A program made the translations under genes and the position numbers. DNA of 64,000 nt, taken from assembly GCA_963457665.1 (NCBI GenBank), contig OY735224.1:39732329-39796328 (forward strand). The letters are read 5' to 3'. Each line of letters starts with the position of its first letter. The stretch's first letter is position 1. This stretch comes from Thysanoteuthis rhombus. Its lineage: Eukaryota > Mollusca > Cephalopoda > Oegopsida > Thysanoteuthidae. This document shows, piece by piece, positions 21,201-59,600 of the stretch. The notes under the pieces are model-generated. The model did not search any database, was not told where the DNA came from, and saw only the letters and a program-made list of their open reading frames with translations.

Positions 21201-21681
21201 ATTAATAAGCTGATATACTGCTTTAAAGTTGATGGTTAAAAACAGTGATTATTTTTGCACCAACCTTATAACTACTCCTAAACAACACCTAATTTACCTT
21301 CAGTTTTTATTAATACAATATAAAAATACCCGCCTTCCAGGTGGTTTACCCCAGTTATGTGGGGCCTACGGCCGTAAAACTGTGAATCTAATGATTCAAT
21401 GTTTCATTACAGTAAGGTCTACATAGCTAGGGATTGCTGCCAAGAGGGGGGGGGTATTATTAGCTAGTTAAAATAAAATATGAAAGTAACAAAAAACACT
21501 TCTACACATTCTCAATGTGCCCGAAAGTAAATCTTGATTCTTTTTTTTTCATTATTCTATCTCCAGAAATGTTTTATCCACTTCATCGTATGAAAACAGT
21601 CAAACATATTACTGCTGTAATTTGTGATGTTCCACATTCCAAAGAAAAATATTGGTAAGTCTTGAAAATGTAGTCATCATC

Positions 21682-21714
<33 letters not shown>

Positions 21715-24534
21715 TCTTTCAACGTTCGTGTATTGGACATAGACCTTCCCTAGGATTCGCCACACTTCTCTATCATGGGTGTCACGGAGTTAGTACTTTC
21801 TGATTTTATCTAGCTTGTCTCTCCATCTAATATTCGGCCGGCCTCAGTTGCACATGTGATCTCGGGGGATCCACAGCCTGTGTCGTAATGTCCATCGGTA
21901 TCCGCCATTCTTGCAACATGGCCAGCTCATCGCCATTTTTGATTTTTAATGGATTCTATGATGTCCCTGACTCTTGTTGGGTGTACTGTGCTGTCTTGTG
22001 GACTCTCCATGTGAGGCCCAGCATAATCCTTTCATGTGCACGTTGCATGGTTCTCATTTTGAGGATCTGCCTCTTGGTTAGGTTCCATGTTTCAGCTCCA
22101 TAAGTGACGATTGGGAAAATGCATCGGTTATACACCCGTCTTTTTAGGATTAATGGGATCTTCTTATTTTTGAAGGTTAAACTTGCTCTGCTAAAGGCTT
22201 GCTATCCTGGTGCGATTCTTCGTTTGATTTCTACTTTCTTTTGATGGTCTTGTGGAGATTCATTGTCCTTGGTAGATGTAGTGGTCTACTTTCTCCAGTT
22301 CTGTGTCCTTGATTTTGATCTTAGTGTTTTTATCTCCGATGTGGTTGTTGCACATGATCTTCGTCTTGCTGAAGTTCATGTGTAGGACGACTTTCTTGAA
22401 CTACCCAAATCTTGATCTCCCAATGGTCCAGCACCTTTTTCTTCTCCAATAATAATTTCTACATTTTTGGGCACATTTTTTCTCTATTTTTGTACTCCCA
22501 GTCATACAGCATCATTTATTGTGATTTATCTTCCAAAAGTACACAAATATAAAATAGAACAAGATGGTTATCATGCTGATAATGTTTGAATCTCTTCTAA
22601 TCGGCTAATACAAGTAATCAATCAATCCTTATCGCACCCCCAAATCAGGAATTTTCCTGAAACCGGCATTTGTTGAGTGAGGCTGATTAAACACTTGAGA
22701 AAACCACTCTATATAACTGCCTGAGAAGAGGTTATTACATCCATTGTAAACCTTGACAGAAACCAGTTTAAATAACTCTATAGGTACGCCATTCGTCTAC
22801 CTTCTTGGTCATGTAAGTTCGTAAATTAATCGTCTAACAAAGAATAAATTATTTTTTTAGCCTGACAATGGAGACGGGCGTCATTTTTAAAGCTTTAAAA
22901 ACCCTTTAACGCTTAATTTCATGAGGTTTATGACAGGATAATTATCAAGGGAAATGATTTCTCTTTGAAATTTTCCCTTTTGACTATTAGGTGATTTTTC
23001 ATTTTTTTTTCTTCTTTCTTTTGTTTTTTTCTTTCTGTTCAATTCACTGAAGAGTTTCATTATCTGAAAGCGTCAACCAAAACTTTCAACATAGATTTCT
23101 TCATTTTTTTAAGTTGGTCTGGCTGGCTATGAATGTATCACGCGTACAGGTCGCACCATGAAGCTAAGGGACTGAAGTTATAAACACTTACTCCTTATGA
23201 TACAGAAAAAAAATACTTTTTCTTTTTTTCGAAAATATCACTTGAAATCCAAATGGGTTTTTTGCAATGTAATTTTTGCTAAATTGGTCCCAACTTTGTG
23301 CCTGGCTGTGTTAACGTTTGTTTTTAAGGAAAATCGGACTTTTAGTGATGTAACAAAAGGTTAGCTAGGTGACTAATACATTGATTACCCCTTTTCTAAT
23401 CTTTTGATCAATCACCCCAAACACGGCATATTTTTGTGCTCTTCAGTGGAATGTCCCACTGTCATTGCAAACGGTTACAAGTGGTCCATGAATTTAAGAG
23501 TTTGGACATAGATCTTTCCCAAGGTCTGTTGAAGTAAGCATAAACCATAGAGAACGATGGGCCTTACCCTGCCACGCTGACCCTGAGATCTTAGTTTGGT
23601 ACTTCAGTCATCCACGACAACGCAGAACGTACCTGGTACAGTCCTAGACTTCTTCACTGCACTGTAAGCTTTTCCGATTACATCCGTTAAAAAGATAAAA
23701 GAAAGATTACTTGAAAACTTGAAAACACTGAAAGGGCGTATACAACTGCCAACATCACTGTGATGAGAGGTAAGTGAGCCTGGAACCGCCCCAAAATTTT
23801 ATCCCTTCTTTCGTAGTGCATTGCCTACTCTTTCACAAAATTTCATTGGAATTCATTGAGAGCTTTCGGAGATATCACGCAGACAGTCATAGATTTTTGG
23901 CGCTATTATGTGGAGTGGACATATAACTACGATGAAGGGGGGGGTGATTTGTATCACTTCTATGGCCTATGGTTGATCTTTCCACAAAATTTCATTGGAA
24001 TTCATTTGGAGATATCGTGGGTAGAGTCATCAGCGTATGAATGTATGGAAAAAAAAACGAAAAATATTTCTCAATGAAAACCAAAATCCTGGATCCATTC
24101 CTAAAATTCAATCAACTCTTTTTCTGCCCCATTGTCCACCCTTTCACAACATTTCTTTGAGAACTTTCAGAGATATCGTGTGGAATGGAATAAGTACCAT
24201 CGTTGACAAGGTTAATTAATAATACTCAAGTCTACAATGCCGGATTGGTTTATGACATTTTTGTAATCTTAAAAATATTTTGTTCCTTCTAATTGTTCAC
24301 CGATTTGTTCGATTTCTGATTTTTCAGGGAATGCCTCACCCCAGATCTGGTTTGTGGTGCCAGTAAAAAGGAAAGTCCCTGGTACGTGGCTAAGGATGGC
24401 CCAGCTTGGTATTTGCCAAAAGGTTTGAGTCTCCAATTTTTTCAACTATTACAGCAAAATATGTGGTTCCCAAAGTGTGAGCCGCGGCTCCCTGCAAGAT
24501 GAGAGAAAACGAGAGGAGGTTTCGGGAACCACTG

Positions 24535-24622
<88 letters not shown>

Positions 24623-25171
24623 CAAGTTACTTGGAGGGTTTGTTCGATCTCTGTTTATTTTGGTTTTATGGAGATTAATTATAAGTATAAGTCTGGTTCC
24701 TGGAGATCTGACTCCCAAGCAGTACTTCCTCATTGTACTAAAAGAGGTAGTGTTTGAGCAGTTATTGTCTGTACCCACGTACAAATAAATGTGTGTGTCT
24801 CAACGTTTTAAAAGGGCATTGTACCGCATTTCATCTCCGTAGGATGATGAATAGACGCTAGATACGACTTGGAAAGGAGATGGGCGCTGTCAAATGACTT
24901 CCTTAGTTCTGAAGAAGAAGAAGAATACAGTCAAATCAGGGATTCTTCTCTGATGCTTAAACAATGTCTGGTATTACTTGGAGAGGAGATGGGCACTGCC
25001 AAGTGTCTCCATTTGCCCAAGAAAAGTATTTTCTCCTGTTGTTCACATAAAGAAGAAAAGAGAAGAAAAAAATCAATTACCATGTAAAATTTGATAGTTT
25101 TTAGACTTTGTAGTTTCGATTAAGACTTTTTGATTTCAGACTACCATGCAGGTTCTGCTGAAAGTTCAACT

Positions 25172-25230
<59 letters not shown>

Positions 25231-25371
25231 CGTTTCTGTTTTTTCTTCTCCCGGCGTCATTGCAGAGTTGTTGCCTCAGATGATTACCATCGACCCACGC
25301 TGGAAGAGTCAGTCGATCTGTAGTTGCTCGTCCCCGCGTTGGGTGGCTTTTGAACAATCTGGCGGATGAGA

Positions 25372-25458
<87 letters not shown>

Positions 25459-28400
25459 ACGTTTTTTCATTGGGAGCGCTTTTTGATCCAACACCCTATA
25501 TTTACACAGTTAATGTACTAATAGGCCTAGACGTCTCTTATAACGGCATTTTCAGCATGTTAAAACGGATGTCTATTCAAAAAGGGTTTTTACTAAGAAT
25601 AACGTATTTATAATTATTCTGTTGGAATGAATATCCATTCCATATATATATATAATTAGATGAAAAATAATTCAACAAATGGCATTTAATTCAAAATTAC
25701 CTTTTAAGCTTGTGGTTCTCAGAGTTCCAAATAGGCCTATAACAATTTTAAAGACACAGGCTAAACCGTCTTCGTTGCAGCCAGAAAATATAGTATCTAA
25801 TTCTTACCGACTCAATATGTACTAGGAAAGGGAGATAATTGCAAACTATTCTCGTCGGGATATATTTGAAAACCAGTAGTTCACTGCAGATTTTTCTTTT
25901 TTACTGTTAAAGTAAAGTCCACTAAAATTATTTCAAAATTTTGTGTTCAGATTTGGCTGTTCCTACAGGTAGTAATGATGGCTACATCGTTGTACAAGTT
26001 CACGCCCCCGTTGGGATGAAAAGTAAGTGTATGTCTTCACGCTCTCTCTGTTTTCTCATTTATCTTCAACTGTCTTCTTTTTGTGGAACTGCGGGCACTT
26101 CAGGGCATAAAAAGCAAGTTTTTTCTTTTGAAGTTGCAGAAGCCGGAATAATACAAAGGTAATAATTTTACAACTGGGAAAACGTCGCCACCAAGTCCAC
26201 TTAAATAATTTACACTCTGGCCTGAAACATGCAATTCCTTCATCTGTATTATCAGGTTATTCATCTGGTGCACCGAAATATTATCCTTTCCTGTGACTCC
26301 TTATTTAAGAAATCCATCTTCTGGTTTGTTTAGACCAGCTTTTCCCAACCTTTTCAGACTTGTTTTATAAATTTAAAAAATTCTCGTCATATCCCACCTT
26401 GGTCTAGAATCTAAATTTCCTTATTGTTGGATTGATATGAAACTTGGTCCCAACCTTCAGTTTGACCTTCTCTTCTTCTTCTTCTTCTTCTTCTTCTTCT
26501 TCTTCTTCTTCTTCTTCTTCTTCTTTTCCCTAACTTCTCTTCTTGCTACTATTACCACTGATGGTGGACGCATCGTTGAACTTATCGTTCTTGATGTTGA
26601 GTAACTATATCAATCTGCCATTCCAGTACAATCAACACCGGATTTTTTTGCGACCGGCCTCAGGGTGAACATCACAGACCGCAAGTAAGTTGACATTTCG
26701 GCACATTTTTCCACACATTTTTGACTTTTGCTTGAATGTCTGAATCTTGCGTAGATAAATCACCTACAAGTGTACTAGAACTAGTTATCAAAAAATCATT
26801 TAAAATTATCTTTCAACAAAATAGATCTTTTATCTAAAATTATCTAAAGAAAATGTCAGCATAATATTTAGGCACGCGTTTGAAGAAAAAAAACAAACGA
26901 ACTATTATTTTAATGGTGCGCAGTGACGTACTCATGCAAGTTTCCAAAGTTGTAGCCCTAAATATGTGACAAGGGGCGCCATCACAGTGTACACGTTGAA
27001 ACGTCCAAATCCAAAAAGTTTCAATTTATAAAATGTCCGACTTATAAAATGTCCAATGAACATAAAGTCCACTGAAGGACCAGTACAAAAACGTCCAAAG
27101 CATTTTTAGCAACACCAGAGACGCTATTCAAGGGAATTTGTCGCGAGGGTGGCGTGAAGTACGTGAACATATACGTGTACATATGTGTATCTATCATGTG
27201 TGCTTGTTGTGCGTATATATGTATAAATTGACCGGCTTTGCCTCAAACCTTTGAGCATTGGATCTTTTTGCATTGGACCTCATTGCATTGGCCGTATTTG
27301 CATTATTGGACGTTTTTGCATTGGACGGGTTTGTATGATTGGGCCTACTGCATTGGGTGTCTTTGCACTGGATGTTTTTTACAAGATTTCAAAAAGCAAA
27401 ATCAGCAACAACAGATATCTAGTCACTTAAGATATCAAAAGTCGGTTACAAACAAACCATCAATGACACAGCCATTTAATCGACACTAAAGAAGCAGTTC
27501 TAGGGAATCGTTCGTGTGAATGGTCTGGGGCACGTGCAGGTGTATATGTGCGTATCAAAATTATGTGCATATATGAATAAATTGGCTGTTTTTATATTTA
27601 ACCTCATTGCATTGAATGTGTTTGCATTGTTGGACCATACTGCATTGGTCCTCTTCGCATCGGACGTTTTTGCATTGGCCCTTTTGCATTGGACGAGTTT
27701 GTACTTGACGTTTTTGCATTTGACGATTTGCATTGGGTGTTTTTGCATGGGACGTTTTTGCTTGTTAGATGCTTCATCTTTGGACCATTTTCAATAGACA
27801 TTATGAACTTGGACAGTCAGTTTGAGTCATTTTTTTTTAAATCGGCCCTTTTTTATTGGACTTGACACCAAAATTCTTTAATTCTTTTCATTCACTTTTT
27901 TAGGCCTAAATATTTTTCTGGAGAGGCAGCTTACGGTAATAAAGGCTATATTCCTGCCAATACAACAGGTAATCAATTATTTTATCACATTATTGTACCC
28001 AAATTGACTGAACGGTCAGTCTCTAATGAAAAAATTTGATCATGTCACTATAAAATAACAAGCCTGGCTACTGGAGGTCAAACTCTTCTCCTACTTATAT
28101 TACTGCAACTTTTATATTTTATGTATGATGAATAAAGAAATATAAAAAATATCTATATTAGTATCAATGTATTTATTCAATACAAAAAGGTAAGAGAATC
28201 ACCTATCGATCACTTGTTCAAGATTCAATTTATCGAAGGGAACTGTTAATTTTATAAAAGTATTTATTTATTCGAATAAAATAAACCCTAGTATATCTCT
28301 GAATTTTTGAGATGAGGTATTATTATTATTTCTATTACTATTCGGGCCATCCTCATCTTGGTTGATTTTCATACAACGTTTCGGCCGTTATACTCTACGG

Positions 28401-31400
28401 CCTTCATCAGGTATCATCTGGTAGGTGTGGAGAAATAACGAACCTTACCCTTTATTTAACCGACGGAGGTATATTGACCACACTCCCCTCTTAGCATTAG
28501 TAGTATCATTCTAGATTCAATCCCAGTGTGAGACAATAATAATAGAAATAAAATAAACCCTATTTGATACATAAATTTCCGTAGATATGTAAGACTTGTC
28601 AGTTTGGTTCAGTTAGTAAAGGAGCCGCCCACCAATCAGTTGGCTGCGAAATGTCAATTTTACCCATCAATTTGGATTAATGCAATGAGGCAGGCACGGA
28701 GTGGAGAGTTTACCTTCCAAAAAGTAAGCGTGATTTTATCTTCTTTTTACAGTACAAAAACGAAGTCAACTCCATACTTGGACTGCAATTACTTGGTTTG
28801 TGTTGGACCCCTCCCCATCAAAAAAAAGAAAAAATATTTTTGGATGACCAACGAGATATTTTTCACGTCTCGTACAGGTTTTGGGGGGTTAACATCGCAT
28901 CACCTAAGTATGTCAGTCTCCAACCTCAACAGTCCAGATTTGGTTCTGTTTGCTATTGAAAGAGGAGAGATTTAAGGCCGTGGACAAGATTAAAGAGAAC
29001 ATGACAGGATGTCAATCCTGAAAAAAGACTTTACAGACTTTCATGAAAAGTGAAATGGATGCTGGGATATCTGCGTGAAAGATGGAAAGGGGCGCCCCGG
29101 GGGCACCATCAACCAACCAAAAATACAGCCTAAGAAATTCATATAGGTTCTTGGCAATTCTTTTTTCTATGAAATATCCCCCTGTTCACATGATATCTCA
29201 AAAAATGTGAAAGGGTGGACAACAGAGTGAGAAAAAGTTGGGGTGGATCCAAGTATCTTTCTTTGAGAGATATTTCTTTTTTTTTACAGTTTAGTTTATG
29301 CTCACGGCAGTCTATATTATATCTCCGAGGATTTTCAATGAATTTCTATGGAAATTTGTAGAAGGGTGAACAAGTCAAGAAAAAGTCAAACAAAATATCT
29401 TCATAGTACCCATGTTTATTTCCTTCATATTATTTCACAAAGCCAGAACCAAAAACTGAAGACTAAATATGAATGGATTGTATGTAAATGTAGGTTTATA
29501 CCACCGCATTCATTAACATTGGGGATTCATGATTAATAATGTATGGAGTATTAGCACAGAAAGATCACCAAAATTTTAGATATCCTGAGAAGAGAACAAG
29601 TTCTAGATGGCAGGGGATGACACCATGGTTACCACCACGGCTGACGCTTACCATAGGCCTGCCACTGTGCAGGGAGTATTTCGATGACATCCTGGTTTAA
29701 GTTGCGACAGCTTAGTGATCCTTGCAAGTCTCACGTCTGGATGAGACCAGGACTAAAGTTTTATGACCATTCCCTTGGCAGGATGCACCCAAACCACAGA
29801 GCTTCGAGTGTACTGCACAGGAAAATTTGATTTAATGAAGAATTTTTCACATTCTTTGATCATACCAGGAATTGAATCCGGGACCCTCTTTTAAAGCAAA
29901 CGTACTTACCATTGAACAATCCATGTGGACTAGGTAGTTACTTACCTTGTTCTTTTAGTAGCAGGGTATTTCAAATTGTGTGCAATGGTTCTTTCTGACA
30001 GAGCAGTAGATATTTGCTTTGCATCTTTCGTCAGGCCCAGTATAACAGAATCAGCTCAGGCATCTTATGAAAATATCGGACAGTCTTCATTACCTTCTTG
30101 TAATAAAGTAACATTATAACTTTTCAGAAACTGTCAATCAAAACTGTCACGAGAACAATCGATATAGGTTTCTTCAGTTTTTAAGTAGGTCTGACTGGCA
30201 ATCTATTTATGTATGTTTCACGCATACAGGCTGCGCCAATAGAACCAAGGAGGCTGAAAATTTAAACACCCACTCCTTATGTCTGGAAAAACAGTTGTTT
30301 TTGTTTTTTTGAAAATCTTCCCCAATAATCTTTTCAGTGGGTGTTCAAATTTCCAATGTAGGTTTATGCTAAATCGATCCCTTTGTTTGTTTGTTTGGTA
30401 GCGTTCACACTCGTCTTTAAAAATTCAAGATTTTTTTTGTCAATCATTGTCTGCCCAACAAAGGGCGATAGAAACAACCTATTCGTGTTAACTGATTATC
30501 CCCAACGGGGAATGCTGTCAAAAGATGTTTACCATATGACGGTTTCTATTGAGTGACTAACCAGACCTATTGACTTTTATAATTTGTTACTTACAGATTT
30601 TGTCGCTGATGCTGCCTGTATTTGGCCATACGATAACAATCCCGTGTTTGGTATAGCTATTCATTCTCACACAATGGGTAAGTGAAAGAAAAATAAACAA
30701 CATCCTCTCATACAATCAACTTCCATTCACGGGTTTTTTTAACAACAACAAAAAAATGTTACAGTTCTTGTCTGCCAAAAATCAGTTGTTGTAAATATTT
30801 AATGAATTATTAGAATTGTTATCGTTTTTTGTTGTTGTTTTTTTTTAAGATTTTGTGTTTTGTTCTGGTCGATGTTGTAGTAATGAAAGACGCCGACGAA
30901 CTGTGTTTCAATTAAGTATTTTATTTCCATCAATTCACGTGAGGAGAATTCCTGCTGGCGAACTGACTCGGCCAACGCGAGCTATTGCTTGTTACTCGAT
31001 CCCATCCCACAGATAATGTCAATAAACATTTTGGTATGAGCTTACTACCCATGAATTCATGAATGATTTCATATAGACGAAAAATGTATCATTTAGTTGT
31101 TATCATATTTTTGTGTCAATTTTTTTTTACTTTTATCTTTTGTAGCTACAGCTATTTCTGGTTATATCTATAGAGACGGTAAATTCATTGAATTGGTGAG
31201 AGCTGACCCAGTATATCCTGAGGTATATCCGTCTATTTATCAGTCTATTTATCTATCTATGCCAGTTTATTCATGTCTATCTATCTATCTATCTATCTGT
31301 CTGTCTGTCTGTCTGTCCATCTATTTCAGTGTTCATAGTTATCTATCTAGCTATGTGTCAGTGGGTTTGCTCGATGGTGTGACTGAGATAGTTGAATATC

Positions 31401-32013
31401 TGTCCAGGTAAATGCCCGGGTGTTGAATGCTGATTGAGAGGTAAGACAGGAAGATCACTCCCATTCGGAAGATTGGTAGAACACAATCTTCTCTTATTTG
31501 GTAAGGATTGTGGGATAGCAAGCCTTCGGTAGAGCAAGCTCAACTTTCAAGAACCAAATGATCCCAATAATCCTAAAAGGAAGAGTATACAACCAATGCA
31601 TTCTCCCGATAGTCACTTATTGAGCTGAAACATGGAACCTAACCAAGAGACAGGCTTGCAAACTGATAAGTATACAACGTGCACATGAGAGAATCATGCT
31701 CTACTTTACATGGAGAGATCACAAGACAGCACGGTATATAAGGAAGAAAACAGGTGTTCGTGACATCATAGAAACTATTAAAAAACTCAACTGGCAATGG
31801 TCAGGCCATCTTGCAAGAATGAAAGACAACTGATGGACATCATGTCTCACAACATGGATCCCCAGAGATCACATGCGAAACCGAGGCTGACAGAACACAA
31901 GATGGAGAGATGAACTGGACAGATTCAGGAAATTCTGGCTCCGCGATGCCCATGATAGGGAATTATGGCAAATCCTGGGGAAAGTCTATATCCAACGACG
32001 GACGTTAAAAGAC

Positions 32014-32072
<59 letters not shown>

Positions 32073-32778
32073 GAATTCTAAGAATTCTAGGAAACTGGAC
32101 ACTGACCACTCCATATCATCACAAATTTCCGCCTTACTCTGCCGTTGTATATAAAATCTGACGTGCTCTTTTAATGGGTTATCAACTGATATAACATGCC
32201 AATTTTACCTTGTTGTTTTCTGTCTACAACACCAAGAGATAACTTTCATATCTTGGGCAAGAATTACTTCATTATTGCATGATTGGTAAGAGAAAGATTC
32301 AGTGCAATATCTGAACTCTTTGACAATTTCTCAAGTGAAATAGCTTCTCACCCTTTAATATTTTAAGCTCTTATAAATTTGCAATTGCAAATTTACTTGA
32401 AAATATAATTCGGGCATTTTTCTTACGACAATGGTAAAACTGATAAAATACATGGCTTACGTTAAATTTCCTCTTTTCAATCTTTTACAGCCAATTATTG
32501 ACATTTCTGATCGGAAACTTGTGTTGAAGAAGGGAGACAGTGTGGTAAGTATCTATCTATCTATCTATCTATCTATCTCAATCTGTTCATATCTATCTAT
32601 CTATCTCAATCTGTTATCTATCTTTCTTTCTTTCTATCTATCTATCTATCTATCTATCACAGTCTGTTCATATCTATCTATCTATCCATCTATCTATCCA
32701 TCTATCTATCTATCTATCTATCTCAATCTGTTCATATCTATCTATCTATTTATCTATCTATCTATCTCAATCTGTTCA

Positions 32779-32814
<36 letters not shown>

Positions 32815-33785
32815 ACAGTCTGTTCATATCTATCAATCTATCTATCTATCTATCTATCTCAGTCTCTTCATATCTATCTCTATTCATATCAATCTATCTC
32901 ACTCTGTTCATATCTCTTAATCTATCTCGATCTATTCAGATCTATCTATCGTATCAAATTTTCAACATAGAGTTCTTCATTCATTTTCAGGTGATGCGTT
33001 GTACTCTGACCAACCCTACTGACAAGATCGTGAAATTCGGGTAAATACATACATATATGTATATTTATCAGATATGTGTACGACGACGGGAAAATCTAAG
33101 TCTAAAAAATGAAAACAAACTGTCAAATTCTTTGGTTGAATGTTGATTGAATATCATCTCGAAAAAGTTTGGGTTTTTTTTCAAAGACGATATCATAAGA
33201 TGGTTTGCATGCAATCTGAGATTGGAACAGACACAACGGATTTAATGTTCACATGGGTGAACACTTAATAAAAGTGACACGAAAAATGGGTCACGTTTGT
33301 TGTTATACTTATTGATTCCTAATCGTCGAATACGTTTTAGGGAGTAACCTTCATGAGTAAGCCCTGTGTTTTGAAAATGTTAAATGATGCGCAGCATAAA
33401 ATAATATCCATGTACAATACATTACGATAATACTCAATGTAAAATAACAAAATACGTATTATGACACGGCCCAAAAAAATAAAGAAACAAAGCTCTGTAT
33501 CAAAATTATACTTGGAAGGGGCAATGTTTAATCAACACTGCCGGGAGCCATGTTAATGTAACTTTTTTGGTTTTAAATTCTCCGAAACTCTTAGATGTCA
33601 AACAACAGATCATTCCTACAAGAAATATTAACACTTAGTACCATGGTATCAAATTATGCGAAAAACACGAAAATCACTGAAAAAATCACATGAATTACAT
33701 TTACAGATATTGAGAAACAATTGACTGAAATAAGATGAGACAGGTTTTTTTTAAAATTTAGTGTTTAAAGTTTTAAATCTTTTTA

Positions 33786-33856
<71 letters not shown>

Positions 33857-34691: not shown

Positions 34692-34695
34692 ACGA

Positions 34696-34701
34696 AATAA
34701 A
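34696..34701 (+). terminator. Poly(A) signal of copy A
   Basis: AATAAA begins four bases after the stop codon, so the 3' UTR would be very short. Confidence 0.7.
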
Positions 34702-34849
34702 ACACAAGTTGTTTTTGCTTACTGTTTACAAAGATCGCTATGGTTTCCATCTTTTTTCCTATGTTGGTGTGTTTATGTGTTCATTTGTGTGCTCCAGCAC
34801 TGCTGACCATACTGTTTTATCTATAGACTTAAAAATTGGCATCAGTACT

Positions 34850-42398: not shown

Positions 42399-42399
42399 A

Positions 42400-44540: not shown

Positions 44541-44559
44541 TGTCTCTTAATAAAATTCA

Positions 44560-44797: not shown

Positions 44798-44801
<4 letters not shown>

Positions 44802-45313: not shown

Positions 45314-45316
45314 GGA

Positions 45317-45355
<39 letters not shown>

Positions 45356-45571
45356 GAAGGAAGGTGAAGAGAAGAAAAAAAGAAAGAAAGAAAGGAAGGT
45401 GAAGAGAAAAAAAAGAAAGGAAGGAAGGTTAAGAGAAGAAAAAGAAAGAAAGAGAGAAAGAAAGAAAGAAAGAAAGAAAGGAAGGTGAAGAGAAGAAAAA
45501 AGAAAGAAAGAAAGAAAGAAAGGAAGGAAGGTTAAGAGAAGAAAAAAGAAAGAAAGAAAGAACGGTGAAGA

Positions 45572-45636
<65 letters not shown>

Positions 45637-46140
45637 AGCAGGATCATCAGAGAGAAGAAGGAAAATAAAATGAAGGGGACAAGAACCGAGAAGTGGAAAG
45701 AAACAAACTAACAAAGGAAGAAAAGAAGGAAGAAAGGAAAGAAGGAAAGTGAGAGAAAGAAAAAGAAACAAACAAAGAGAAAGAAGTGGGAGAGGAAAGA
45801 AGGGGAGAGGAAGGAAAGACAGAGAGAAAAAAGTAAGAACGAAAGCAAGAGAGAAAGAAGAGGCAGAATCGTCAAATAAAAGAGAGAAAAATATAAATGA
45901 AAGGGAAAGAGAACCGAGAAATAAGGAAAGGAAAGAAACAAAATCATCAGAGAGAAGAAGCTAAAGTAAATTAAGGAAAATGCAACTGAGAATTCAAAAG
46001 AAAAGAAGAAAGAAAGAAAGACAGAAAGAAAGGAAGAAAGACTAAAAAAATAAAGAATAGATAAAAGAAAGAGAGAAAGAAAGAGAGAAAGAAAGAGAGA
46101 AAGAAAGAAAGATAGAAAGAAAAAAAGAAAGAATGAATAA

Positions 46141-46173
<33 letters not shown>

Positions 46174-46186
46174 GGAAAGAAAGAAT
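45314..46186. repeat. GAAA/GAAG purine array at the left edge of duplication unit B
   Basis: About 870 bp of AAAG-type repeats with a higher-order unit including GGAAGGTGAAGAGAAG. It shares AACTGAGAATTCAAAAGAAA with the array at 10409-10795 but is over twice as long. Confidence 0.95.
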
Positions 46187-46739
46187 CTTCATATATGATA
46201 ATTGGCCTTGTATATTTGTCGTCTGCCAAGTCCATGTTATTTATGACGTCTAGTGACCTAACTTACCAGAGATAGAATTTTGTAATACGCTGAACTTGAT
46301 GAATTGTATCTTCATTTGAGTTTATCTTTAAAATAGTTTGATGTTCAGGAATTATTAAACACGGGCAAGAAAAATGCACAGCAACATATTTTATAAGTAC
46401 AATGTATTTGCATAATTTCCTAATCATTGTCGTCATTTTTGATGACAAGGATAAACTAGTGAATGAAAAAAAAGCAATTAAGAAAACCAGGGAAAATATA
46501 TTTAAAAAAACATAAAACAACCATTTATTGCCACATCTACAGGATATAATCTGAACAAAGTTAAAATCCTGAAAGCAACAATCCTGAAAAAACAAAATCC
46601 TTTAAAGATGAGAAAGAAATGGCACGAATCTTTCCTTTGACTTTGAATAACAAGATGGTCTTGTTAGATCCGGGTTCGGTTGCCAAAATGAGTGGTTGAA
46701 CGAATTCTAAAAAGATATATCCGCTTTTGTTTCAATTCC

Positions 46740-47085
46740 TCTCTTTTTTTTTTCAACGAGAGAAATTTATAAGCTAGGTCTATTACAAAAACAAAGTCAG
46801 AAAAACAAAATTTATTCTTTCTCAGAAAGAATTTTGAAAAACTGGAATCGTTTACCATCTCATGTAAAAATACATAATCTTAAAAATAACTTAGATCATC
46901 TTATAGAATATATTAATGGGACAATTTTAGGGGTTTTCAGCTGAAACATAGAAGAATCTAGAAAAATTCATTATCTCTTGAATTAATGTACATCGTAATG
47001 TTGAATAAGTATATTTTTTGTAAAATGTTATCGGATATGCCCATAGAGGCATTTTTGATTAATAAATAAACAAAGTTAATTCCCA
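46740..47085 (+). mobile_element. CR1/jockey-like LINE 3' end
   Basis: A frame reads REIYKLGLL and FSERILKNWNRLPSHVKIHN, then LKNNLDHLIEYING and a stop, the usual FxxRxxxxWNxLP...LDxxx ending of such reverse transcriptase proteins. A short 3' UTR ends in AATAAATAAACAAA. It lies in the 5' flank of copy B. Confidence 0.65.
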
Positions 47086-47719
47086 CGAAAAAAAATTCAC
47101 GAATATAGTTGAGTTTTTACGAGAATCTTCATAGAATTGGTCGACTGGATGTTGAAAACGGAGTGACAAAGCGAAATCTATTTGCTGTCAAAATATATGC
47201 AAAGTAGAAAATTTGTTTTTCAAAGTTAAAGTCAAAAAGTTGCAAACTCCACGTTTTTATCTTTGAATTTCTATGAGTTATTTTGTGGGTAAAGAAACGA
47301 CTGAAATTATCAAACGGATAGGAAATATTTCTAAGAAAAAGTTGTTACTTTCAAGTAGAAAAGTCTTTTGGTAGAGAAAAACAGAGAAAACAGGAAAAAA
47401 AAACATTATATGAACCGAGTTTTTCTAGGTTTGAAATCCAAAAAATCACAATTGTAGAGGTCCAAATTCATGAAAATTATAATTCGGGAAAAATAGGTTT
47501 TAAAAGCTGATTTACTCGTGGAACATACAATATTTTTCTTTATACTCTCGCTGGACTATCGTCGGAGATTAGTGTGCAGCAACAGCACATGAAGATTTCA
47601 TTGCATTATTTTGAAAACTAAAATCAATAAACCCTAAAATAAACTGTTTCCTTTGTATTGCATTAAATCCCTGGGGGAGCTGTAATAGCAGGAGCCCACT
47701 GTATAACACTTCGAAAGGC
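47086..47719. other. 5' flank of copy B
   Basis: Diverged match to the copy A flank around 11700-12100 (for example AGGTTTGAAATCCAAAAAATCACA). No gene seen. Confidence 0.5.
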
Positions 47720-48150
47720 AGCTCCATCATCATCAGCAGCCTTTAACGCCTATGGTTATACACAGACCTTCTCCTGGATTCGCCAAATCTCTCTATGGTG
47801 TCGCGGCGTCAATATCTGCTGAGCCTACCTAAATCGTCACATCATCTTATTTTCTGCCAGCGACAATTTCGCATATGATCCACATTTAGATTTGTAATAT
47901 CCAGCAGTTGTCTGACTTTCTTTCAACATGGCTAGCCCATTGCCATTTTAATTTTCGAATGGATCCTTTCGTATCTGACTATTGTTTTTATTTTCTGATA
48001 TACTGTGAGATTATGCATAATCATATTGTGTGCACATTGCGTGGTCCTCAGTTTGAGGGTCAGTCTCTTAGCTGGGTTCCGTGTTACAGCTCCATAGGTG
48101 ACTATCGGGAGGATGTAGACCCTTGCAAACTATCGATTCTGATTCAGTGA
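47720..48150 (-). mobile_element. RTE-type LINE 3' fragment upstream of copy B
   Basis: Starts with CATCATCAGCAGCC tail remnant, then CTTCTCCTGGATTCGCC, CAACATGGCTAGCCCATTGCC and GCTCCATAGGTGACTATCGG. The right end is shared with copy A at 12303-12415. Confidence 0.75.
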
Positions 48151-48979
48151 TTCTTCACTTCCTCTCTTACTATAATATTATATTGACTTGAACTTTTATG
48201 AACAACTCAGTGTTCAAGGTTAGGAATTGTAGCTAAAAACCGCATTTAATTGGGGTTAATAGTACAATTATTAATGGGAGTATGTTATATTTGAGATACA
48301 TACACGATGCATGAATCTGAAGATTTTCGAAACTGAAGTCATTGCCGCTGCACAAAGATCAAAACAAAAACAAAGCTTCATTGTTACTGAAATATCAACT
48401 TCCTGTAAAACAAATGAAAAATTATGCTTACGTAAGTGAAAATCAACGTGTTTTAATCATTTTTGTGCATATTCTTCATTTAGGGCCCCTCTATTACATA
48501 TGCTACCGACCCTGTACTCACTTAGTCCACCCTGTTTGTATGTCTCTGTTAGAACGTGTATATGCTAGTATGTGTGTGTGTGCCTCCATGTGTGTGTGTG
48601 CCTCCATGTGTATGTGTGCGTATGTATGCACATGTGCGTATGTGCATATTTTTGCGTACATGTGAATACATCCATATCTGTACGTGTGTGTCTGTGTGCG
48701 TTCGTATGTGAGCGAGTGTATAGGCATGTGTGCAGTTGTATGACTCTGTACATGCACGTCAATGTATACGTGTATATGTATGTGTGCGTGTGCCAAATTC
48801 TGTTTCAAGGAAAGCAGACTTGTTTTCTTAGAAAAAGCAACATGATAATTATTCCAGGGTGAAGTACACACGTATCCGGTTTAGTAGCAATATTTATACG
48901 TACCCGTATTCTGGGTTATTCAGAGGCGGGTTATATAAAAAGGAGGCGGGGCTTAACATTAGGAAAAGAAGGCAAGTTC

Positions 48980-49042
<63 letters not shown>

Positions 49043-49099
49043 CTTGTTATCAAAGAATATCTGCGCATCAATTCGTAAAGAACACTCACACAAGTGGAC
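48151..49099. other. Upstream region of copy B
   Basis: Nearly the same as 12416-13239, with an extra stretch of TG-rich repeat (48565-48795) and a shorter (TA)n at 48981-49040. Confidence 0.6.
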
Positions 49100-49106
49100 T
49101 ATAAAA
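49100..49106 (+). promoter_or_regulatory. Putative TATA box of copy B
   Basis: TATAAAA 122 bases upstream of the copy B ATG, in sequence nearly identical to the copy A promoter. Confidence 0.6.
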
Positions 49107-49227
49107 AGTTGATGTAAGACTTCAGTTGAATATTTCTCTTTACTAGTCATTTCAGTTCAAAAGAAGCTTTTGATCTAATCAAGTCTTCTCTTCATTGTTT
49201 TGACTGTAAATTGTCGAAGTGAAAACA

Positions 49228-49341
49228 ATGGCCAAGTTGAGGTTATTTTACGCATTTTTAACCCTATCCCTCGTTTGCTGTTCAACTTTTGCCAAACATG
49301 ATATAATAGACATCACGATTCCTCACACAGAATGGGACGGT
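49228..49341 (+). CDS. Copy B exon 1
   Basis: 114 nt, identical in DNA to copy A exon 1, with the same T|GTAAGT donor. It encodes the signal peptide and mature N-terminus. Confidence 0.9.
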
Positions 49342-50997
49342 GTAAGTAGACACTTTTCTGACACTTTTATCATTTTTCCGTATAAAACAGGGCCACCACA
49401 CGAGTTTCATGCGCCCTGGGCGAGACTTATAATTCATATCCTTGATTGTACTCTTAAGAACTATTTTTTTTTGCAGTTTGGAGTTGTAAGACCTTTGTGT
49501 ACTTTGCCACTACCTAGGTTCACTTAATGAACTGGCTGGTGTAAAAAAAGGGAATCGGGGCTTAACGTGAAAGAAAAAAAAGCTAGTCCGGCAAAAATGT
49601 AACTTTTTGAAGATGAATTGTGCGTCAATTTGTAAAGAACATTCCTACAACTTGACTATCAAATGCTGGTCTAAGACTGAGAACTGAGAAGATTGTTTTT
49701 CTTTTCTGTTGGTCGGTTCACTTCGTAAAAAACTTCGTGTCATCAAGAAGACTGCTTTTTTTGTTGTTTTTTCTTCATCTTTCCATTGCATTGTGAGCTG
49801 ACCAAACGGACAAACAATGACAAAGTTGCGGTTATTCTTCACAGTTTAATTCTTTCCTTCCCATTAGAAGAAAAACAAGACTTTTTTCAAAGAAGTTTTT
49901 CATGAAAGTTTAATGAAATTAGGAACATTTTCGATATTCTGGATATCTCTATCGGTCATTAGATCAGAGAAAGTATTTCTTAACCCCTACCAGATTCAAA
50001 CGTTCAACATGGCAATGCTGCATTCCATGATAGGAACAGAATTATAAATAAAACAAAAATCAAAATCAAAAGGCGCCATCTTCCAAATTCAATTTTTAAT
50101 TCTGTTTCCGTCGGGGAACACAGCATTCACGTGTCGGGCGTTTGAATCGAGAAATACTTTCATTTCATTTAATAAGGATGATGATATGATCATTTCCAAC
50201 AAAAGGACTAAGGTCTGTTGGTGTGGATTTGAACGTACAGTACATAAGTCATTCAATTAATTCACAGTGTCATTGTCGATATCTTCCCAATTTTTGTCTA
50301 ATCTGTGTTTGAAGGTGTTCAGTGTTAGTACAACTGCGGTATCGACAGAAAGATTATTCCAATCATTTACAATCTGTTGAGTAGAGAAATTAGCTCTTGG
50401 AAGTTTAACTGAATGATTCTTGAGTTTCCCCTGAGGATGTTCTCATGAGAAATTTTAGTGAGAGAGACCAGCGTATTAATGTCTATCTGTGCTCCATTGC
50501 ATTCATGATTTTATGCATTTGGATCACATCGACGGCATCTGTAGACCAGCAATGGGAGTTTCAATTCTTTTTTTACTGTCTTTGTAGGATTTGTTTCTTT
50601 TAGCGATGTGACCACTTTAGTCGCTCACCGGTGAATAGACTACAGTGTTTTAATGTCCTCTTGGAAATAAGGACCCCATATTGAATTATTCATGACTGAT
50701 GAAGATATCAATAATATCCAAAATGTTCTTAATTTCATGAAAATCTCAGAATAACAATCTTGTTTTTCTTTTCTCAAATTTTAACGAGCAAGGCGTCAGC
50801 GATTATCATTGTTATTATTATTATCAGTATTGTTATTATTATTGTTGTTGTTATTCTTATTGTTGTTATGATTATTGTTATTGCTATAATTATTATCATT
50901 ATTATTATCATTATTGTTATCATTATTGTCATTATTGTTATTGTTATTATTATTATTGATATTATTTTAATTGTGGTTATTATTGTTGCTGTTGTTG

Positions 50998-51028
<31 letters not shown>

Positions 51029-51333
51029 TATCATTATTATAATTATTATCATTATTATCATTATTATTATCATTATTATCATTATTATTATTATCATTAT
51101 TATTATTAATATTATTATCATTAGTATTATTATTATCCTTATTATTATTATCATTATTATTATCATTAGTATTATTATTATCATTATTATTATTATCATT
51201 ACTATTATCATTATTATTATTATTATCTTTAGTATTATTATTATCATTATTATTATCATTATTATTATCATTATTATTATTATTATCATTACTATTATCA
51301 TTATTATTATTATCATTAGTATTATTATTATTA

Positions 51334-51404
<71 letters not shown>

Positions 51405-53599
51405 GTGATGCTTTTCCCTTGATAGCTGGTTGTATTCATTACTCACCGAGCTTCAGCTTGAAACTTAGGGCAGGCAACGATGTTATAACTTAGTAGGCAT
51501 TAAGAGGTTTTTTTCTAAACAAGACGAGGCGATAGAGACGGTATATGGTTGTATAAAAGCCCAAATATTTACAAGGACGGCGCTTTTCGAAGGTGATGGG
51601 CGATGCCTGTGAGGATAATTTTCTGTATTTCATTGATGTTTCAGTTTTACTGATATTCTACCTAGATATTTGTTGACGCTCTTTTTAATGATCCCAAGGG
51701 CTCCTAAGAAGTATTTCAGTCTGAAGTTGCCACATTTTTTGTTATCTCAATTTCCTCGTCTTTATACCTAGACAATATCTCATACTCTTTTCCAGATATG
51801 TTTTTTGTCTGATGGAATGGTCGTATCTTTTTATAGACAACCCCTTTCCTTCCCGTCATTAATCATTGTGTTTGGGTGGTCGGCTTTAATGGTTTGATCC
51901 CTGTGTACCGGGAACTCCCATAATATTGCCACATCTTGAGTTCCAGTTTAAGGTTCGTGGTGGTGTCGATATCAATGTGTAGCGTGTGGTGTGTCATAGC
52001 GATTACAGACTATCCAGTGGATGAACTGTCTCACTCTATCGTGTCTAAGTCGGTATTCATTGAGGCCTAGAGCAGGACATCTAGATATGATGTTGTCGAT
52101 AGTCTGAGCGGTGCTATCACAGAACCAACATTCGGGTTTAGCTCCGTTTTTGATGAAGGTTCTGGTTTGGGGTAGCAAGAATGAAGCCTTCTGTTTGGGC
52201 TTTTAACCCTGAACTACATAGTCACTAATGGGTTTAATTATCATCTACATCAGCAAGTTAGGTACGGAGTGTGCAATGGCTGTGCATGAAATTTTGTTCT
52301 CAGTCATCTTTTAATATTCCCTATTGCTTGTTGTACTTTGTGTTGGGGCTTGTTGGTTTCTGTTGGTCAAGTTTAGTTCACCTCACAGTCACCATGCGGT
52401 TGTCACTTGCTTGCAGATTAGCGTGAAGGTCGATGGTTGCAGTTTTGTATGACAGCTCTAACTGGATCAGACCTCTGTCATCGTTTTTTCTTAGGGAGGT
52501 AGATTCGATCTACGTCAGCTTTTGGTGATTTTGCAGTCAATGAAAAGTTTCCTTGTTTAGAGCTGCTAATCATATTAGCCCCCTAAAATGTGAATTACCA
52601 GAATTGATCTAAGGAGATAAATACTGGTAAGTAGCGTGTTCACTGCTTAAGTACAAAAACAAGGTTAGTGCACAGTTAGTTGGATTGTTAACAAAACGCA
52701 GAAATAAGAACAAACGAATAGGTTAACAACAATGCTAATTTTTAATTCATGAGTGAATTGAAATAAACGAGGATGGAGTTTCTGCCAACACAGATATGTG
52801 GAGGGATCTACCGGGATAAGGATGGAGAGATAGGAAGGATGAAGGAAAAAGAATGTCACCAAGTAAATGTGAGATAGAGTCTATAGAATGTCCGTCAGTT
52901 TGGTCATCCTGGTTGTACGCACTATGAAGCTATCTTAAGAAGTCCGACCTAACTACAATGAGAGTGCTTAACTTAGATAGGATATGTTCTTGAGATGAAT
53001 ATGTGATGATGCGTGTGTAAAAAGATGTGAGTATAAAAACAACATCAACTGTCCTAACTAAAGATAGAGAGAGTGAAGAGACTTGCTTAAATCGAGGCCG
53101 TCGGAACAAAGAGAGAGAGGGGGGGTCTTTACCGCCACAGTTTGAATACCTTAAAGATAACGATGAGTTATCTTATTGATAGTTCTGTGTGACGTCAAAG
53201 AGGAAGCGACTAGGAATTTACCATTTCTACAGTAATGTAAGGGATAGCAAGTAGATCCCTATCAAAGGCAGATAACTCTGTATATATATGATTTTCTTTT
53301 GCTGGAAAAGGTGGGCACAACACTTGCTTTAGCGTCGATTCTGTGCATGTCAGCTATGTTCCAAGTTATGATATTAAAACTTTACTGCACGATAAGTATT
53401 GTCAGGATGTTGATGGTTTGCAATGCAATTCTGAAAGTTCAACCCAATTTTTAGAAAAGCTCGAGCCCTCTGCAGTATTCCTTTTTATTCTTTCTCTCGT
53501 GAATTTATGAAGACAGACAGAACGACAGAAAGACGTAACCGAACACATACACCTCTAACTTCATTGGCAGGGGTATATATTCCCGTCATCTTTGACGGG

Positions 53600-53665
<66 letters not shown>

Positions 53666-56600
53666 GTCTTTTATCTTCTGTCGTTGGACATAGGCCTTCC
53701 CCAGGATTTGCCACACTACTCTATCATGGGCATCGCTTGACTCTTGTCTTTTCTTGGGTGTACTGTGCTGTTTTGTGGTCTGTCCATGTGAGGCCCAGTA
53801 TAATTCTTTCATGTGCACGTTGCATGGTTCTCAATTTGCGGATCTGTCTCTTGGTTACGTTCCACGTTTCAGCTCCATAAGTGACTATTGGGAGGATGCA
53901 TTGGTTATGCACCCTTCTTTTTAAGATTAATGGGATCTTCTTATTTTTGAAGGTTGAGCTTGCCCTGCCAAAGGCTTGCCATCCTACTGATAAAAACGTG
54001 TCAATTTTCATTCAAATAAACATCTTTCTCTCCTTATTTATTTCCAGGTTAAACGCATGTTGTGTACTGCATATCCAGTCAAGGCCAACCATTACATAAG
54101 TGAGTGGTTTCGTTTTTTAATGTATGTCTGATGGTCAGAAAAAAAGATATCAAAATATATTAAGTAAAAAGTCGTTCATCTTTTTGCTGTATTTGAAGGA
54201 AAACGGTGAAAATTTAAAGAAAAAACTGTCTTGTACGAATCATGTATTTAATTATTATAGAAGAATTATCAGTTTATTCCTTCCATTTATCAATTGTTTA
54301 TCATCTGTGGGAAAAAAAGATTTTGAAAACCTCTCAAATGTTTTGTTGAAATTGTTGAAAGGAATATTTTTTCAGTTTTTTTTATAATTTTTTGTCCAAG
54401 TGAACGATGCACAAATAAAAACAATTTAACAATTAGATTCATTTGAAGCCATTACTGAATATTTTCTATCAAGTAGGAGATAATCGTTCATTTTAAAACC
54501 AGGAGTTGCCCCAAGTTTACGTGCGTAATCTTGGAGATTACCAACTAATAATTCTTAATCATAATAATAATCCAACTATTACAATACGCATTACGTATAA
54601 ATCAATTTATTAATTTATCTTCTGTCACGCTAAGGAACGCAACTTGTCTATATTATCATTAAATGGGTTACGACATGATAATGTAGTAATGTAGAATTTT
54701 ATGTTCTAGTGACCTTGTAAAAATGCTGAATTTAAAGTATCATTTTGGAAAAAAAGGTAAAAAGTAATAAGAACAAAAAGTAAAAAGAAGTTCTTTTGCA
54801 GTCAATAAACCGCTATTCTTCTATTTCACTGCAATACAAATCCTTATCAGATGATAATGTCTACAAAATGCAATGTGCATCCATATATTCCATACATGCA
54901 GTCATTTTTACGGCACAGGTGAACTACTTACCTTATACATCATGGAGATGTACTTGACCTCTCTGTCGCGACGTTTATCTCCTTCCTATCTTGGAAAAAT
55001 AGTTATAGACTTAAAACGTTTCGCTGCAGATGGTTTTACACCATAATTTCCAATGAATTCCGCGTTTTGTTTTGTTTTTTTTAAGCTAAAAAATGCATTT
55101 TCAAAGCTGTGTAGAAGGAGCCCTTAGAAGTACGGAAGACTAATATAGCTGTATTGTTAGCGTTTTACGTTTACATAACTAAAATTAAACCAGTCGAAAT
55201 TACTACTCATCTTTTTACATTTGCAGCTTTCATTTCGATAAGGATTCAATTTCGTTTTTAGTATTTACATATATTTCATAAAAGAAAAAATTCTTCGAAA
55301 ACTACGAAACTGGTCTTCGACCAACACACACTGTATTAGTTTTAACTACTAATTACTTATTTGATATTCAGATATTATTATATCTGGCTTTAAAGAATTT
55401 AGAGACACAGAAAATGAGCCGATTATGACTTTTTTTAAGTACGACAAGTTATGGTCATAAAAATGATTTTTAACTTAAATTACGTCATCCTTTTACAAAT
55501 CATTTGCAGTTGATGTGATAAAACTTGGTTTAGAAAAAACGACGGTTTTTATTCAAATCAACTGTCATGTCTCAGTTTATTTGAAATAAACGTTCAACAG
55601 GATTTGCCTGTAGTCTAAGTTGATGCCAAAATAATTGCGGTTTTTGTTATTTTTAACTTTGATGATTATTTTGGAATAAACTATTGTTTAATCATGTTCA
55701 CGCAACATACCATTTTAAAACGTGAATTTCGCTCTATTTATGTTGGCAGAACGTTTTCATTTCACGTTTTCATCATCATCATCAGTCTTTTAACGTTCGT
55801 CGCTGGACATAGACCCTCCCCAGGATTTGCCACACTTCTCTATCATGGGCGTCGCGGAGCCAGTTATTTCTGAACTTGTCAAGCTCGTCTCTCCATCAAA
55901 TATTCTACCAGCCTCGGTTACGCATGTGATCTCAGGGGATCCATGTTGTGAGTCGTGATGTCCATCGGTTGTCCGCCATTCTTGCATCATGTCCAGCCCA
56001 CCCCCATTTGAGATCTTTAATGGATTCTATGATGTCCCTGACTCTTCTCTTTTTCTCGGATGTACTGTGCTGTCTTGTGGTCTCTCCATGTGAGGCCCAT
56101 CATAATTCTTTCATATGACCGTTGCATGGTTTTCAATTTGCGGACGTAAAGCAACGGAAACTGCTCGCAATATCGGTCAAGTATTTCGAGAGGTGACCGT
56201 CAGCGAATGCTCAACACTGATTTCAAAAGTTTTGAGATGGAGACGATAGCCTTGGTGTCATGGACGTCCTTCTGTGACTGAGGACATCCAATTGAGGGCC
56301 ATTGTTGAGGCTGACCCACATAAAACAACTCTAGAGGTTGCAGAGGAACTAAACATTGATCATTCAACAGTTGTTCAACATTTGCACCGAATTGGAAAAG
56401 CGAAAAAGCTTGACATGTCACACGAATGATCCTGGATGAAAAACAAAAAAGATCGCATGTCAGGCAAATGACCCTGCAGAAATAGAACGAGCTACGAAAT
56501 TCTACCTCATCCAGCTTACACACTAGACCTCTCTCCGACTGACTGCTACTTTTCAAGCATTTCAACCACTTCATAAAAGGGAAGGTCTTCAACAACCAGA

Positions 56601-59600
56601 CAATTGCTCAAAACGCTACGAAGAATTAACTTGTTCCAAGACCCAAAAATTCTATGCTTCCGGAATGAATGGACTTGTTTCTAGTTTACAAGATATGTAG
56701 ATTCTGAAAGCTTTTATTTCGATTGATAACTTTTATTCTTAACTGCTTTAAAGTTGGCGGTGAAAAACTGCATTTGTATCAACCTAATATTTACTTAAAA
56801 TAACAACTAATTTATCTTTAATTTCCACTAATACTACCTATATCATTGGTATAAGGGCATCAAACTACATAAGAAACGACCAAAAAAACAATATGTAAAA
56901 ATGACATTCAAAGCCACATTTTTGGCAAATATAGGCTGTCTCATAGAACCGCGTTTTTGGTAAAAATATGCTATATCGTAGAATTGTATTTTAGTGAAAT
57001 ATAGGTCATAAAACCACCCCAAGTAATGATTTGATGTTTTATGGTCATGGACTTCATTTAGCTGGGGGTTACCGCGAGGGGCCAGATACGTTTAGCTTAA
57101 TGAAATGAACATGGAAACAGCAAAAACCTCACGAATAAATTCTCAATTTGCCCGAAAGTAAATCTTGATTTTATTTTCATTTTCTACCCCCAGAAATGTT
57201 CTATCCGCTTCACCGTATGAAAACAGTTAAACATGTTAGTACTGCAGTTTGTGATGCTCCATATTCTACAGACAAATATTGGTAAGTCTTGAAAATACAG
57301 TACAATCCCCAAATCCGGAAACCTCTGTAGTTCGGTACTTTTTGAGTCATTTAACTCTATTTACAATTTCAATTTGATACTTAAGATCACCCTTTTCCCT
57401 ATTTTTGTACTTCCAGTCATACAACGTCATTTATTCTTATTTTCCCTCCCGAAAGGTCACAAATATAAAATAGAACCACGTGGTTATTATGCTGATAATG
57501 TTTGAATCTCTTTGGATCGGATAATACAATTATTCAATCACTCCTTATCGAACCCCTTAATCCAGAATTTTCCCGAAACCAGCTCTTGCCAGGCGCAAAG
57601 GGTTCTGGATTAGGAATGCTTTAGAGTAATTCTTACTCTAGTATCAAATTCTCAGTCGGGTTCTTGGTGATCTTTGTTTGGGTTTTATAAATAGCTTTTT
57701 TGGTGGGAAAAAGGATCTTATATGCTGTAAAATACGTTAGGTTCTTTCAGTGACAAGCTACGATAGTTGACAGAGAAGAAAGGGGCTGAGTGAACTCTTC
57801 AGCAAACTGCTCTCCCATAACTACCCGACAGAAAGTTGTTACACCAATTATCAATCTTGACAGAAACCAGCATAAGCTTGGCTGCGCTAGGGTCAAACTT
57901 CCTTACTCCAATAAAATCTAAAAGGTAAACAAAGTACAAATTGATTTCTCCACACATTATAATTCCAAAACTATGTGTCCCATTTCAACTCCTTCGTTAG
58001 TAGTTGCTGTAAATTGGATTTACAAACTTTAGTGAAACAAGTCGACCTGAGCTGGGTTGTGGGAGTGGATTCGGCATCAGTTTTTGCGTACGTCACTGTG
58101 TCACTGTTATTCGTGCATGACGTCATCGGTTTTTGGTCTTTCGTTGTCATCCGTCATTGTCGTTACAAACGAAATTAAAGTCAAAACTTCATAGTTGTGC
58201 CGTATTCGTCGGCCATCTTGGTCACATGACTTTGTGAATTGATTGTCTAACAGAGCATAAATGGATTTTGTATTTCGACGATCAAAAGAAAAACGGACGT
58301 CATTTTCAAAGCTCGAAGAAATCTCATTGGAATTCCCTGAGAACTTTCGGATACATTACGTGCACAGTCATGAACTTTTGCCAATATCATGTGTTGCAGG
58401 CATATAACTACGATGCAGGGCAGATAATTGTGCACTTCTTCTGTAGCCTACTGTGGGCCTTTCCACAAAATCTCATTAGAATTTACTGAGAACTTTTGAA
58501 GATACCGTGTGTACAGTCATGAGCATATAGATAAATGCATGGAAAAAACGTAAAAAATATCTTTCAATCAAAGCGAAATTCCAGGATCCATCCTAAGATT
58601 TAAGCAAATCTTCTCTACCCGATTACCCACCCTTCCACTTAAATTCATTGAGAACTTTTGGAGATACTGTGCAGCTAGACAGACTGATAGATGGAAAGAC
58701 GCCACCAAATACCTATACCTTGGTTGTTAGGGGTGATCAATATTACTCAAGTCTGCAATGCTTGTTTTGATATTTTTTATAAGTTTGAAAATAAAATCGA
58801 AAAATATGTCTGATTGTTTACTAATTTGTTTATTTATTGATTGTTCTTTTAATCAGGGAATGCCCCACCCCAGATGTGATTTGCGGTCCTGGTAAAAGTG
58901 TTAGCCTCTGGGCAGTTGCTAAGGATGGTCCAGCTTGGTATTTGCCCAAAGGTTCGAATCTTTTGTTTATTTGTTTTTTTAAAAATAGCAGCGAAATCTT
59001 TCTGTTATTCTCAAAGTGTGTGTCGCGGCTGCCTGCAAGGTAAGAGAGAATGAGAGAAAGGGATCATTTTTCTACTTAATTTCTCTGTCTGTTTCAAGTT
59101 GGTCGTAGAGTTTGTCCACAGCAATTCGTGGTTAGAGATTAGTTATAAGTGTAAACCCAGTTTCTAGAGATCCAATTCCCAAACAGCACCTCCTCATTGT
59201 ACTAAAAGATTTAGGGTCGGTGAGTAAAACCTGACACCTGCAGCAACGTTAATGAAACTGAGCAATTAATTTCTCTACCCACGCGCAAATAAATGTGTGG
59301 GTCGCAACGTATTAAAAGGCATTGTACTGCATTTAATTTCCATAAGATGATAAATAGATTCTGCATACTACTTGGAGAGGAGATGGGCACTGTCAAGTGT
59401 TTTCCTAGTTCTGAAGAAAAACGTCTGTCAGGAATTCTTCCCTACTGTTACTATACTTTACTATAGTATCTAATCATTTTCAACGGTTTGTGTCTTCAAC
59501 AAGGGAGGTAATTACAAACTATGTTTATTATCAAAATGTATTTGGACACCAGTACTTAACAGTAATTTTTTTATTTCTCGCTGACGTCTGGTAAAATTGT

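Follow-up and report, generated by a model that had tools for sequence, protein, structure and literature searches.

Genes of a PHM-like family in the cephalopod Thysanoteuthis rhombus encode lysine or arginine in place of the first CuH histidine

Peptidylglycine alpha-hydroxylating monooxygenase (PHM), the monooxygenase core of PAM, is a copper enzyme in the final processing of peptide hormones, and the copper ligands of rat PHM have been studied by mutation. According to PMC6123673, replacement of H107, H108 or H172 by Ala yields an inactive enzyme, and H107A crystals of the wild-type form have lost the copper of the H site (CuH) and kept that of the M site (CuM). In molluscs, DBH-like monooxygenase protein 1 was raised in warm-reared octopus paralarvae (PMC6635378), and DBH-like transcripts changed in infected snails (PMC5685644). 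Here we describe a small family of PHM-like genes of Thysanoteuthis rhombus, found in a window of 64,000 nt (GenBank assembly GCA_963457665.1, contig OY735224.1, here called C29, positions 39732329-39796328). The window contains one complete copy (A) and exons 1-8 of a second (B), both with Lys where PHM has the first His of the CuH pair. A literature search by titles and abstract openings, with most subscription journals outside its scope, returned no description of a Lys/Arg variant of this His pair or of the C29 family. The terms monooxygenase, peptidyl, dopamine and hydroxylase have no occurrence in PMC7656900, and those passages of PMC12607849 that matched the search terms held nothing relevant.

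The original prediction, based on the letters of the window, was that the pair reads KHITAVIC in copy A and KHVSTAVC in copy B. Both motifs were located within spliced exons on the + strand (21602-21625 and 57229-57252, respectively), and when all six frames of the window were scanned for [HK]H[MVIL]..[FVIA].C, matches occurred solely at these two places. A phmmer comparison with PDB sequences, run with a query that carried a false end to exon 1, aligned the stretch to TVHHMLLFGC of PHM (E = 8.1e-18) and set the Lys of that query under the Ala of TVAHM in entry 5wja, the rat H107A mutant according to PMC6123673. A profile of five corrected paralogues matched PHM with E = 2.6e-22 in the same register. 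The predicted substitution of Lys for the first CuH His was thus upheld: the Lys stayed on the first His of TVHHM, and the ligand pair did not move elsewhere.

The loss of the first His, with Lys or Arg in its place, held at every locus found with this exon 3 in the genome (2.73 Gb in 514 contigs). The exon 3 peptide recovered five loci (E up to 10), with Lys at the H107 position in A, B, C and E (codon AAA in each) and Arg in D (CGC). Its recurrence excludes a single sequencing slip as the cause of the Lys; since the five loci are paralogues of common origin, they represent one or two substitution events, not five. An exon 3 encoding HH, which would have overturned the prediction, was found neither in the window by the six-frame scan nor in the genome search, which reaches close relatives only, as shown by its not returning the HH exons of this genome's PHM- and DBH-type genes.

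The other copper ligands were retained in all copies that have the exons for them. As predicted, copy A keeps five (H108, H172 in VQVH, H242 and H244 in HSH, and M314 in DQMC, all aligned with PHM) and copy B the four that fall inside the window. H108, H172, H242 and H244 were present at 5/5 loci, the partial copy E thus keeping the four that fall in its surviving exons, and the Met in 4/4 complete copies. The three-His CuH site is therefore incomplete, with Lys or Arg at position 107, while the His-His-Met CuM site is complete. Fifteen columns of the A-D alignment contain His; those of the ligands were invariant in 4/4 cases versus 4/11 for the others, a suggestive difference (chance ∼0.05). 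Eight Cys columns of the mature protein were invariant in A-D, seven aligning with Cys residues of PHM and the eighth lying past the end of the alignment. None of them is a counterpart of the fifth PHM Cys pair, which we take to be 47-186.

The proteins of copies A-D are under purifying selection, in line with the earlier view that open frames and conserved Cys residues reflect selection on the fold. Ratios of nonsynonymous to synonymous substitution rates (dN/dS; Nei-Gojobori) for the six A-D pairs were 0.15-0.28 for the full frame and 0.13-0.28 with exon 1 excluded, at dS values of 0.20-0.68. For E against A-D, the ratio over exons 2-8 was 0.14-0.21. At the position of R240 of PHM, two residues ahead of the first His of the CuM pair, the family has Ala, Ser or Asn. 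We take R240 to be the anchor for the carboxylate of the substrate peptide; its loss is a separate argument against peptide amidation.

Several observations place the family with PHM, as originally proposed. PHM was its best PDB match, the ligand motifs occur in the same order, and seven Cys residues align. Human DBH, of the same superfamily as TBH and MOXD1, was also matched, far more weakly (9.3e-5 with an early model and 6.8e-7 with the five-member profile, against 2.6e-22 for PHM), so the family is not closer to DBH than to PHM. The PF03712 C-terminal domain scored 64.9 bits in copy A (cut-off, 23) and was matched by four of the five members, E being without most of the domain. The PF01082 N-terminal domain scored 16.6 and 17.8 bits in early models (cut-off, 30); with the corrected models two of the five matched at E ≤ 0.1 (best, 1.2e-05) and copy A gave no match. 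This domain region does fall within the profile alignment with PDB sequences.

The genome also contains a PHM-type gene on contig C4, reading MDTSHHILLYGC, QIHY and DDEMCN (the stretch was fetched in part, its CuM His pair being outside that portion or unseen there), and DBH/TBH-type exons on contig C32, reading LVHHIEVFHC, EVHY, LHTH and DEMC. A three-frame translation shows the HH exon of C4 closing with ..VW ahead of TAAGT, like exon 3 of the family and apparently in the same phase, and beginning at roughly the same point; the C32 gene carries its HH in an exon built differently. This likeness and this difference point to descent from PHM. The family departs from PHM in having Lys or Arg at H107, Ala, Ser or Asn at R240, and no Cys pair 47-186. 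Unlike bifunctional PAM, the modelled A-D genes stop after 338 codons in exon 12; a lyase part is absent from them as modelled, no lyase search having been made around the genes.

The family consists of four complete genes (A-D) and one partial copy (E), all on C29. Peptide searches with exons 2 and 4 (E up to 10) returned the same five loci as exon 3, and exon 9 returned four, A-D. Each of the A-D products has 338 residues and no internal stop, and AG/GT splice sites are present at the modelled introns. The 13 kb read past exon 8 of copy E showed no recognizable exons 9-12; satellite-like repeats follow there. No exon 1 was seen within the 1.9 kb read upstream of exon 2 of this copy. Genome searches with PF03712 (four matches) and PF01082 (seven matches) recovered the C4 and C32 genes and two weak places on C20 and C11, and did not recover the C29 family, so that gene counts based on Pfam are lower bounds in this genome.

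We consider, with a probability of roughly 0.5, that the family encodes secreted, PHM-derived glycoproteins that hold the M copper alone and are not peptide-amidating enzymes. The product would be a PHM core by itself, probably secreted and glycosylated, judging by eye from the hydrophobic N-terminus and from an N-x-T sequon at residues 155-157 kept in 5/5 copies. With a basic residue in place of the first CuH His, the H site could not take up copper in the PHM manner, and with the M site complete one copper would be the most likely content. Rat H107A, which has lost the same ligand and kept the other five (6ALV, 5WJA), is the model for this copper state; it differs from the family in that its Ala is man-made rather than a natural basic residue and in that R240 is still present. 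A single copper would not support two-copper, ascorbate-driven alpha-hydroxylation, nor peptide amidation. The Lys or Arg side chain would probably lie close to the vacated CuH position, next to H108 and H172. An extracellular function, either in binding or driven by an oxidant, might fall to the M copper or to the interdomain cleft. As a natural family under purifying selection with the other ligands kept, these genes offer ready-made proteins for asking what the M copper can do by itself, and whether molluscs have put the PHM fold to a new use in secretion. Three observations weigh against this reading. H108 and H172 are kept at 5/5 loci, a retention that a merely dead H site leaves unexplained. 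Residues 270-303, around the Met ligand, had the highest proportion of nonsynonymous differences (pN) of the parts compared among A-C (0.11-0.19) and a high one in pairs with D (0.15-0.20). Finally, in citrate-grown crystals of rat H107A, one of two molecules holds CuH on H108, H172 and two waters (PMC6123673), so a two-copper state may be attainable.

The strongest case for a stand-in or an altered H site comes from the two CuH His residues that are retained, H108 and H172. The family might be a natural one-copper branch of PHM in which Lys or Arg stands in for the H copper between these two His residues, and in which the M copper works with peroxide or an external electron donor, for example, in place of an internal store of electrons. 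We regard this as unlikely; if true, it would mean that evolution arrived at the single-site enzyme which copper chemists engineer through mutation. Invariance of the same residues, together with the citrate-grown H107A molecule, would also suit an enzyme that still carries two coppers, the H copper being held by H108, H172 and water or by a neutral Lys, and the swap tuning no more than its potential or substrate range. This is quite improbable, since H107A is inactive and its standard crystal lacks CuH (PMC6123673). The Arg of copy D is, on chemical grounds, hard to picture as a copper ligand. Somewhat more plausible, and still doubtful, is a pseudoenzyme in which the fold serves structure, storage or binding and copper is not needed, e.g. 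a secreted egg, mucus or carrier protein; a DBH-related glycoprotein of the snail albumen gland offers a possible parallel. One CuH ligand and R240 are both lost, two PHM positions adjoining the Met ligand vary between copies (Asn/Asp and Phe/Tyr), and constraint is strongest in the C-terminal tail (residues 304-338; pN of 0-0.036, lower than elsewhere apart from exon 1 of A-C, which is identical), a stretch beyond the PHM alignment that contains no copper ligand. Yet the remaining ligands are all kept wherever the exons exist, and the suggestive excess of invariant ligand His columns goes the same way.

Decay or lack of expression is a very unlikely account. Last-exon fragments do occur further along the chromosome (at least 80 at C29:47.2-50.9 Mb, an internal stop being counted in 63 of these 80), and copy E shows exons 2-8 followed by repeats, but A-D have full 338-codon frames with intact splice sites and dN/dS values well below 1 at the synonymous divergence given above. 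Even less credible is an artefact, i.e. a wrong exon, an alternative HH exon, RNA editing or an assembly error masking a normal HH. The gene models do derive from genomic sequence alone; against this, exons 2, 3 and 4 each recovered the same five loci, and neither the scan of the window nor the genome search, which reaches close relatives, gave any other exon of this kind. Coleoids recode many messages by A-to-I editing. As a means of hiding HH, such editing was rejected: from AAA it can yield codons for Lys, Arg, Glu or Gly and none for His, and CGC contains no A.

The models (Table 1) were built from splice sites, phases and homology to PHM, and are predictions. All exons of copy A are in phase and give 338 residues with no internal stop; exons 9-12 of copy B lie beyond the window, up to 4.8 kb past its end (locus L041), with the Met exon starting 4.6 kb past it. 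Exon 1 ends at a GTAAGT donor common to A, B, C and D, and exon 3 of A and B has 88 bases, an AG acceptor, a GTAAGT donor and matching phase. The donor of exon 4 is weak (GTTTGAGT or GTTCGAAT), with the same weakness in 5/5 copies. Exon 2 was detected as a short exon common to the introns of A-D. An extension of exon 1 through SDTFII...HEFHA, which resembles DTYFC of PHM, was rejected because no donor is present in the right phase and the reading is not conserved in D, the proper exon 2 being conserved in A-D instead. A model in which exon 1 splices straight to exon 3 was dropped as well.

Table 1. Predicted genes and exons of the family. Positions are those of the window unless preceded by C29 (contig coordinates).
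Feature	Position	Strand	Remarks
Copy A, whole gene	13368-34688	+	12 exons, 338 codons, then TAA
A exon 1	13368-13481	+	Hydrophobic N-terminus, putative signal peptide (by eye)
A exon 2	18181-18232	+	Cys aligning with PHM C81, conserved in A-D
A exon 3	21567-21654	+	Lys at H107 place (21602-21604); His108 kept
A exon 4	24328-24422	+	
A exon 5	25951-26022	+	VQVH, third CuH His (H172)
A exon 6	26627-26684	+	
A exon 7	27904-27968	+	
A exon 8	30597-30677	+	HSH, CuM His pair (H242, H244)
A exon 9	31146-31222	+	
A exon 10	32491-32544	+	
A exon 11	32991-33040	+	
A exon 12	34481-34688	+	DQMC with CuM Met (M314); conserved C-terminal tail
Copy B, exons 1-8 of 12	49228-63287	+	Part inside the window
B exon 1	49228-49341	+	
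B exon 2	54048-54099	+	
B exon 3	57194-57281	+	Lys at H107 place (57229-57231)
B exon 4	58857-58951	+	
B exon 5	59620-59691	+	
B exon 6	60631-60688	+	
B exon 7	61484-61548	+	
B exon 8	63207-63287	+	
Copy C	C29:39.676-39.700 Mb	-	Full 338-codon gene
Copy D	C29:35.638-35.658 Mb		Full 338-codon gene
Copy E	C29:50.83 Mb	-	Partial copy, exons 2-8

Remains of a mariner-like transposase, named from a reading of the frames, were found in the same intron of A and B (window 20662-21316 and 56143-56834). As they share 68.6% DNA identity, the insertion probably predates the A/B duplication. Exon 1 of A, B and C shows zero coding differences (A and B, window 12936-13725 and 48806-49588; C, locus L040), and around it A and B share 93.6% identity; exons 2-8 differ at a proportion of synonymous differences (pS) of 0.15-0.45. 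This suggests that the 5′ ends of A, B and C exchanged sequence at a late stage or underwent gene conversion.

A genome search with an early model as the query, in which repeat counts are lower bounds and tallies were made by hand, gave at least 117 matches, all on C29. The last-exon fragments mentioned above (L012-L034 and L043-L046) sit 7-11 Mb from the window genes. At least 16 matches to exon 1 occur at C29:47.3-50.7 Mb; the next downstream last exon within 60 kb was on the opposite strand for 14 of the 16, on the same strand for one, and none was listed for the other. Genome searches with exons 2, 3 and 4 found nothing in the fragment region except in copy E. The fragments look like an amplified broken gene piece rather than genes. 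A frame of the ∼109-base repeat that follows copy E (L059, C29:50815000-50822499) weakly resembles the C-terminal tail (E = 0.2-3), probably by chance.

The haemocyanin domain PF14830, presumably of the mollusc type, had 52 matches in the genome. Nine haemocyanin units of equal score and length lie at ∼2.18 kb spacing at C25:56607734-56625492, suggesting a very recent tandem duplication. One haemocyanin unit scored 708.7 and 709.7 bits against the best-matching unit of PDB chains 6r83 and 4yd9, and 465.0 and 448.5 bits against 3j32 and 8trz; we take 4yd9 to be from a squid (Todarodes) and 3j32 from a gastropod.

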